NCBI GenBank assembly: GCA_021766785.1
Contig: JAICBP010000076.1
Span: forward strand, 129,225-183,740
Reading direction: 5' to 3'
DNA: 54,516 nt
Source: Sulfurimonas sp. endosymbiont of Alviniconcha boucheti
GTDB taxonomy: Bacteria > Campylobacterota > Campylobacteria > Campylobacterales > Sulfurimonadaceae
Each line of letters starts with the position of its first letter. Positions within the stretch are counted from its first letter, which is position 1. Positions 2,488 to 4,059 of the stretch are shown here, piece by piece. The position numbers and the translations under genes are program-made. The notes under the pieces are model-generated. The model saw only the letters and a program-made list of their open reading frames with translations, did no database searches and was not told the origin of the DNA.

Positions 2488-3105
2488 TCAAATCTTGATA
2501 CTTTCCCAGAAAAAATCTACATGTTTTTCAAATTGAGTTGCTAGTGCATTTGTTGAGAGGCTATCAAAACGTAATAGCATCACTTGTAAGCGAATATAGA
2601 ATAGGGTGCTTACAAATTCATAAGCTATAAGTATAGGATCACTAGATTTGATCATAGAGTTCTGCATCATTATAAAAAAACCTTCAGAGAGAAGCTTAAT
2701 ATTTTTATTATGAAATTCGCTTTGAAACTGTTCACGTAAATCTCTATTTTGCATCAACTCTATCATCAGTAATCTAAACATATTTTCATTCTTTTTATCA
2801 AATGTAAGCATCTTATACTGCATAGAAAATTTACTTAAAAAGGGTTTACCCCTTAGTGCTAATTCTTTTATCTCTTCTGTAGAAATAGAGAAAGGTGATG
2901 AAAAAATTCCTTTTGCAACTTCAAGAAAAATCTCTTCTTTGTTCTTGTAATGATTATAAATTGCACTCTCTCTAATACCTACTTCTTTTGCAATTTTTCG
3001 CACACTTGCACCTCTATATCCTAATTCTGAGAATAGGGTAGTGGAGACTTTAAGTATTTTTTCTTTAGTACTACTACATTTAGTTTTTTCCGTATTTTTA
3101 GGCAT
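2488..3105 (-). CDS. TetR/AcrR family transcriptional regulator
   Basis: 205 residues with an N-terminal TetR helix-turn-helix at about residues 13-60: TKEKIL, then GYRGASVRKIAKEVG, then SAIYNHYKNKEEIF. The C-terminal two thirds is an alpha-helical ligand-binding/dimerisation domain of unknown ligand. The ATG is preceded by AAGGA in a good position. The gene stands alone: no transporter or enzyme gene is next to it. The 165-base gap upstream, before rnpB, holds four evenly spaced palindromes (3128-3235) that are likely its own operators, so autorepression is a reasonable inference. The ligand and further targets cannot be told from sequence. Confidence 0.9.
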   Translation of the reverse strand: MPKNTEKTKCSSTKEKILKVSTTLFSELGYRGASVRKIAKEVGIRESAIYNHYKNKEEIFLEVAKGIFSSPFSISTEEIKELALRGKPFLSKFSMQYKMLTFDKKNENMFRLLMIELMQNRDLREQFQSEFHNKNIKLLSEGFFIMMQNSMIKSSDPILIAYEFVSTLFYIRLQVMLLRFDSLSTNALATQFEKHVDFFWESIKI

Positions 3106-3127: not shown

Positions 3128-3235
3128 GAACATCTGTTAATTAACTATGTATTATATATGAACACTAGTTAATACTAGCTTAGAATATCAAGAACATTTG
3201 TTCACTAAATAAAAGTAATAGAAGAACAATCGTTC
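3128..3235. promoter_or_regulatory. Four-site TetR operator-like array with 32-base period
   Basis: Four 12-base elements share the form GAACAnnnGTTm: GAACATCTGTTA (3128-3139), GAACACTAGTTA (3160-3171), GAACATTTGTTC (3192-3203) and GAACAATCGTTC (3224-3235). The last two are inverted repeats with GAACA/TGTTC or GAAC/GTTC arms. Successive starts are exactly 32 bases apart, about three helical turns, placing all sites on one face of the DNA. They fill the divergent gap between tetR and rnpB. Assignment to the adjacent TetR is inference from position and palindromy. Confidence 0.6.
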
Positions 3236-3280: not shown

Positions 3281-3699
3281 ATAGGTGCAAGGATAGTTAC
3301 TTGAAGTTTTTCAAGAGGAAAGTCCGAGCTGCTGTAAGACAGTGTTCCATTTAACGAATGGCCGTAGTAATACGAGGGAAAGTGCAACAGAAATATTACT
3401 TCCATTATAGTTCACTAATGAAAATAGATTAAGCATTTTTATACTTTAGTGCCAGAGAGGCTAGTGAAAGATAGCTTTGGTTATCTATATAGTGGTAAAG
3501 GTGAAAAGGTGGTGTAAGAGACCACCAGTCTCTATAGCGATATAAGAGAGCTTGAAAACCCAACATGGCAGAAAGAAACAGATGGTTAGCGTCTTACTGA
3601 GTGCCTTTACACTCATGCTTTTGTTTCGCTAGAGGTACAACGCAAGTTGTACAGTAGATTAATAACTATCACTACAAAACTCGGCTTACTTGTACCTAA
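3281..3699 (+). ncRNA. rnpB: RNase P RNA (bacterial type A)
   Basis: The conserved P4-strand segment GAGGAAAGTCCG is at 3315-3326, and its distal partner region, with ACTATCACTACAAAACTCGGCTTA, ends near 3688. The ends close as helix P1: TAGGTGCAAG (3282-3291) pairs with CTTGTACCTA (3689-3698), with one G-U. An ACTTGAA/TTCAAG hairpin follows P1. Total length of about 418 nt fits bacterial RNase P RNA, the catalytic RNA that removes 5' leaders from tRNA precursors. Candidate -10 elements (GATAAT at 3261, TAGAAT at 3272) lie just upstream. Exact 5' and 3' ends are estimated from P1. Confidence 0.93.
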
Positions 3700-3852
3700 T
3701 AATACTAAAAAATATGAATACTTATATTAATATTAAAAGATATGGATAAAAAAGCTAAAATTATTTTTGATATATAAACACTCTTGAGATCAGTAGGTAT
3801 ATTTCAAGAGAATTTACATTATGTTAACCAATAGAGATAAAATGGAGTTATT

Positions 3853-4059
3853 ATGAATAAAAAGGAACAATTAATTCAAGATATACAAAACTTACTAAAC
3901 ACACATGAAAAAGTAACGACAACTGCTATAAACCCTAATCTCTTAGAGTTTATGGATGAAGAGACACTAAAAAGTATCATCGGCTCTCTTTTAGACCAGA
4001 AAGAAGCTTCTAAAAAAGATAATATAGAGTGGTTAGAACAGTTTAAAATGATTAAATAA
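3853..4059 (+). CDS. Small hypothetical protein, 68 aa
   Basis: I do not recognise this protein. It begins at an ATG preceded by TGGAG at good spacing, and it is acidic to neutral, soluble and probably helical (repeated Leu, Glu and Lys; no cysteines or membrane segment). It lies alone between rnpB and tRNA-Glu. A 7-base inverted repeat (CTCTTGA 3781-3787 / TCAAGAG 3804-3810) lies about 40 bases before the start and could be a regulator site or 5'-UTR hairpin. A real short gene is more likely than not because of the ribosome site and normal codon use. Confidence 0.6.
   Translation: MNKKEQLIQDIQNLLNTHEKVTTTAINPNLLEFMDEETLKSIIGSLLDQKEASKKDNIEWLEQFKMIK

Follow-up and report, generated by a model that had tools for sequence, protein, structure and literature searches.

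A helically phased operator array and its tetR-family gene form a dif-linked module in Campylobacterales

In the genome of a Sulfurimonas endosymbiont of Alviniconcha boucheti, a row of evenly spaced palindromes stands between a tetR-family gene and rnpB; which protein would bind this row, and which of its neighbours does it serve? The window, the whole stretch of DNA that was analysed, is 54,516 nucleotides long and contains the following features.

2488–3105, minus strand: tetR-family gene of 205 aa, the probable array binder (open reading frame, Pfam TetR_N)
3128–3139, no strand assigned: operator 1, GAACATCTGTTA, in the 5′ leader of tetR, downstream of its −10
3151–3156, minus strand: tetR −10 hexamer TATAAT (from sequence; conserved in relatives)
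3160–3171, no strand assigned: operator 2, GAACACTAGTTA, in the −35/−10 spacer, directly upstream of the tetR −10
3192–3203, no strand assigned: operator 3, GAACATTTGTTC
3224–3235, no strand assigned: operator 4, GAACAATCGTTC, nearest to rnpB
3281–3703, plus strand: rnpB, RNase P RNA class A (Rfam RF00010, 211.7 bits)
3802–3829, plus strand: dif site TTTCAAGAGAATTTACATTATGTTAACC, differing in a single base from the S. denitrificans dif of PMC2731167

Sequence comparison shows the operator array to be real, strongly conserved and helically phased; it is linked to tetR and to dif as part of one module, and one of its operators is inside the tetR promoter.

The operator array and its TetR protein

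A preliminary description of this DNA had reported four TetR-type palindromes at an exact 32-base period, and the window sequence confirms their coordinates: four GAACANNNGTTM palindromes start at 3128, 3160, 3192 and 3224. With the pattern KAAC-N4-GTTM, in which at least one outer base matches, there are no sites in the 54.5-kb window besides these four; a first-order Markov simulation yields 2.4 scattered sites of this kind per window, and pairs 31–33 bp apart arose in 0 of 300 simulations. In relatives the full operator is a 16-bp palindrome, approximately ATKAACANNTGTTCAT (n = 311 sites).

Of 109 loci containing a tetR relative, we added the best 80 to this window, giving 81 upstream regions, with nearly all locus records named Campylobacterota and most of them Sulfurimonas. 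Sites were scanned with a symmetric matrix built from the regions’ own sites, and spacing was not an input. Three to five operator sites lie upstream of the tetR orthologue in 79 of the 81 regions, the exceptions being L122, whose 96-bp flank contains two sites, and L102, with none; a stricter letter rule finds four sites at 31–33 bp in 67 of the 81. The 231 gaps between sites take the values 22 (3 cases), 31 (40), 32 (173), 33 (13) and 63 bp (2) and no others. In G053, from a distant family, four sites stand at 22-22-22 bp, and thus the phase is kept while the distance is not; G039 has gaps of 33-31-22. Because all of these values are near whole DNA turns, the spacing appears to change by about whole turns, which supports the preliminary reading that the sites share one helical face. 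It had also proposed checking whether the period is conserved in relatives, with loci that keep tetR but show no periodic sites as contrary evidence; with at least three phased sites in those 79 regions, this check did not refute the reading. Cooperative binding of TetR dimers to the same face is therefore what we predict, as a likely outcome of this spacing.

The pair pattern is present in 47 of 79 genomes; most of its occurrences are at the tetR locus, with a few single matches elsewhere. Between the sites conservation is lower than within them, apart from AAG in front of the third site (counting towards tetR) and ATATATAAT behind it. We also observed that the central 4-mers of operators are 38% alike within a locus vs 18% between loci (65 dereplicated arrays; 0 of 2000 shuffles), pointing to concerted change or else to co-evolution with TetR. 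As a separate observation, L102 is the sole tetR locus with flank but without array, and it also has neither rnpB nor, within 3 kb, dif.

The window protein belongs to the TetR family (Pfam TetR_N PF00440, E 1.7e-13, 50.6 bits vs a cut-off of 24), and matches to tetR at E ≤ 0.001 occur in 50 of 60 related genomes, 36 of them at E < 1e-45. Forty-six orthologues align at 73% mean column identity, and conservation is highest in the last 15 residues (0.90 vs 0.77 for the helix-turn-helix region). A profile search of PDB chains gives general TetR regulators, RefZ (6mj1) and CmeR included; the AlphaFold model is of moderate quality (mean pLDDT 77.5) and matches many TetR regulators about equally, as a generic TetR regulator fold. 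From the co-occurrence of tetR and array, we consider it very likely that this protein binds the neighbouring array.

The claim that the array overlaps the tetR promoter is borne out, and operator 2 is the site in question. On the tetR strand, TATAAT (3156 to 3151) directly follows operator 2, and conservation of the −10 columns is 0.77–0.97 across the 65 dereplicated arrays; in G045 an operator fills the 17-bp spacer of TTGACA-N17-TATAAT. An operator in the −35/−10 spacer makes autorepression likely, and from this position we are fairly confident that an occupied array should block tetR. In most loci the gene that tetR faces is convergent with it, and no partner gene is constant. In L116, L117, L127, L128 and L130, tetR overlaps a downstream ORF on the same strand; by eye, these ORFs encode a membrane protein plus a glycosyltransferase-like protein, or a NUDIX-like one. 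Given the overlap (in L116/L117 and in L127/L128/L130), tetR could control them.

The rnpB neighbour and sites elsewhere in the genome

The preliminary description had further suggested that the array is tied to rnpB. Regulation of rnpB, making the output of RNase P RNA depend on a signal that TetR senses, would fit the short distance (the Rfam start of rnpB is 45 bp past the end of operator 4) and the adjacency of rnpB to tetR and array in 63 of 81 loci. However, the array is retained in 17 of the 18 tetR loci without adjacent rnpB, where the next gene is a Xer-like recombinase, a small ORF, a DUF808-like ORF or another (names by eye). Conversely, the Sulfurimonas genomes G023 (L200) and G066 (L203) have rnpB behind oorC, and neither tetR nor array separates the two. 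A TetR tree of 86 rows requires 4 changes of the rnpB label; deep branches are without rnpB, and the adjacency is limited to part of the tree. Since the array persists without rnpB and rnpB without the array, we reject control of rnpB as very improbable; rnpB is a bystander of the tetR-array module.

The Gram-positive LexA box resembles GAAC-N4-GTTC, and its core letters are the same as those of the operators, so that the sites might be SOS boxes bound by LexA. Yet LexA_DNA_bind has a match in just 1 of 78 genomes, none of the genus, with control genomes positive. This reading is rejected, and we give it practically no weight.

A genome-wide search for a regulon had also been proposed; in this genome, GAACANNNGTTM has 22 matches vs 30 for the reversed control, so that motif counts do not surpass the control, no promoter-type regulon was found, and a regulon in this genome is rejected. 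Solitary sites were tallied in the 15 tetR-positive genomes with complete listings (G030 left out; palindromes count on both strands), giving 164 non-array rows vs 65 for the reversed control. The spread is wide, from 19 vs 0 in G012 to 5 vs 8 in G000, which is this genome, and 1 vs 1 in G026. Of the cases fetched, 53 of 54 lie inside ORFs, and because the sites are often in the same genes of several genomes they are not independent. By eye, these recurrent genes are one for a hydroxyacid dehydrogenase, ilvD, recJ and nth. The comparison with tetR-less genomes consists of the two clear ones, which lack tetR beside an intact rnpB (G023, 10 vs 4; G066, 5 vs 9). In genomes of uncertain tetR status, where rnpB was not found, the counts are 1 vs 8 (G019), 15 vs 4 (G021, one contig of which starts inside rnpB) and 19 vs 4 (G063), and in part genomes they are 2 vs 1 (G017), 4 vs 7 (G068) and 6 vs 2 (G008). 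Synonymous shuffles of 304 kb of CDS give 3.1 per Mb for the pattern and 4.1 for its reverse. As to location, 27 of 34 solitary sites lie in the origin half of five complete genomes, with the record start taken as origin; a sampled PWM scan at score 9 gives 13 origin-half vs 2 terminus-half matches, with a total below that of permuted matrices, and its last set, G032, gives 3 vs 1. These data conflict, and we do not claim the solitary sites as real sites.

Linkage of the module to dif

About 570 bp beyond the array, the window contains a dif site that was missed in the first reading. It is a published-type Sulfurimonas match to XerCD dif and lies near a GC-skew shift, the sign change in the window being near 16 kb, about 12 kb from dif. 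The S. denitrificans dif, as listed in the accessible text of PMC2731167, has a core identical to GAATTTACATTATGTTAACC. That classical dif is found at most other loci, and in several rnpB-less loci AGTTTGAAAATTATAGTTTTCAATACT, the reverse strand of published difH, stands beside the array. The linkage of the tetR and array module to dif is new here; no account of a dif-linked TetR array was found in the accessible portion of the open-licence literature.

In 55 of 80 loci, a dif of either type occurs within 3 kb upstream of tetR, and every time it is on the array side and has the same orientation. The 25 loci in which dif was not seen within 3 kb comprise 13 whose flank is shorter than 1 kb and 12 whose flank is about 3 kb. 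The array is present in 40 genomes of the genus and shares its contig with dif in 36; in the others (G001, G018, G025 and G035), the contig is short or ends less than 2 kb away on the dif side. The distance from array to dif in these 36 has a median of 653 bp and is within 3.1 kb in 33, and the three longest are 6.4, 11.7 and 17.1 kb; in G002, G070 and G062 dif is 6–17 kb away. These three genomes, the 12 flanked loci lacking a dif within 3 kb and L069, where the array is complete although rnpB and dif are both missing from the nearest 3 kb, show that close contact with dif is not needed.

Families with XerH and difH likewise have tetR and array linked to difH, 69 bp away in G053. Besides tetR, the Sulfurimonas and Hydrogenimonas groups have almost no clustered neighbour in common, with the exception of a GGDEF-like cluster (C10). 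In five single-contig genomes, dif lies at 47–53% of the record. Many families have dif but no such tetR, and the linkage could be one of inherited position only. Two observations concern the surroundings of dif: a 68-aa ORF at 3853–4059 of the window follows it, with similar ORFs after dif in L128, L130 and L312; and G023 and G066, both Sulfurimonas, are genomes without tetR, array and the usual dif, the dif search pattern being absent from either.

A candidate terminus platform and its relation to known systems

The explanation that we favour, and to which as a whole we give an even chance, is a dif-linked, autoregulated TetR platform. The array would be the binding platform of the TetR encoded beside it, on which three to four dimers, whole DNA turns apart on one helix face, would form a cooperative row; one dimer would cover the tetR promoter, and TetR would thereby limit its own synthesis. 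Together, tetR and array would make up a compact module that several Campylobacterales families carry next to dif, at the replication terminus, where it would act as a nucleoprotein mark instead of controlling rnpB. As no promoter-type regulon can be detected, and as the module stays with dif while rnpB and other neighbours change, it probably plays its main role locally, at the terminus.

The same array might instead serve solely for tight cooperative repression of tetR, with the protein a small-molecule sensor, the proximity to dif inherited and meaningless, and the real target either a gene next to it, in some lineages, or a small number of weak, unrecognised sites. We regard this as a serious contender that falls somewhat below even odds. 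The operator in the promoter spacer, the array and tetR of L069 away from both rnpB and dif, the generic ligand-binding type of the modelled fold and the few loci in which tetR overlaps downstream ORFs all agree with it; but dif stays while the neighbours on both sides differ between families, tetR, opposite a convergent gene in most loci, is without a constant partner, and four phased operators exceed the needs of autorepression.

That the favoured platform has a function at the terminus is a reasoned guess, less likely than not to be right, and a function in the manner of SlmA or RefZ is put forward only tentatively. In its fullest form, which we think rather unlikely, the proposal is that this Campylobacterales TetR is a chromosome-terminus factor. 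Its dimers would form a phased row beside dif, scattered sites would be excluded from the remainder of the terminus half, and the row would serve to mark the terminus for division, for segregation or for Xer recombination; such a factor would work like SlmA or RefZ while belonging to neither, and would have remained beside dif through the change between XerCD/dif and XerH/difH.

Beyond Xer, the marking and organisation of the terminus in these bacteria are little described in the open-licence literature accessible to us, and a gene and operator array accompanying dif in different families and under two Xer systems would give a handle on terminus organisation. Even on the plainer reading, in which the array serves tetR repression, these are unusually clear natural operators at two or three whole turns, and thus cooperative same-face binding by TetR can be tested directly.

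Several known systems resemble this module in part. Classical autoregulated TetR repressors have an operator between the −35 and −10 of their own gene in a divergent layout, and both the spacer operator and the divergent layout recur here; however, the operators number three to four, their helical phase is conserved, and a constant divergent target gene is lacking. MatP does not belong to the TetR family, and the likeness to it is specific DNA binding linked to the terminus, predicted here. According to the accessible text of PMC3116907, matS occurs in 23 copies spread over the Ter domain, whereas the pair pattern gives a single cluster per genome here and no Ter-wide spread. The accessory sequences of ColE1 cer, which bind PepA and ArgR, adjoin the Xer core site (PMC5357621, in the part accessible), and the putative protein-binding DNA described here is likewise near a Xer site, but its distance from dif, anywhere between 69 bp and 17 kb, is not strict enough for a synaptic complex of fixed form.

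Closer in family are SlmA, the nucleoid occlusion factor, and RefZ (YttP, with its RBMs, in Bacillus subtilis), both TetR proteins like that of the window. The accessible parts of PMC6657595 and PMC3116907 describe many SlmA sites, mainly in coding regions with none in the terminus, and describe no array at dif; the solitary sites here, candidates whose counts conflict between genomes, are similarly in ORFs and mostly in the origin half. The window protein scores 26.7 bits against SlmA (NF007015), for which the cut-off is 120. RefZ, which acts on chromosome capture and division as given in the accessible part of PMC6657595, has the best NCBIfam E-value in all 46 orthologues scanned and spans residues 14–165 of the window protein; the score of the latter, 41.4 bits, is so far below the cut-off of 180 (NF037937) that it is not a RefZ member. 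The arrangement of the sites differs as well, for RefZ has five single sites around oriC, whereas here a phased array lies beside dif.
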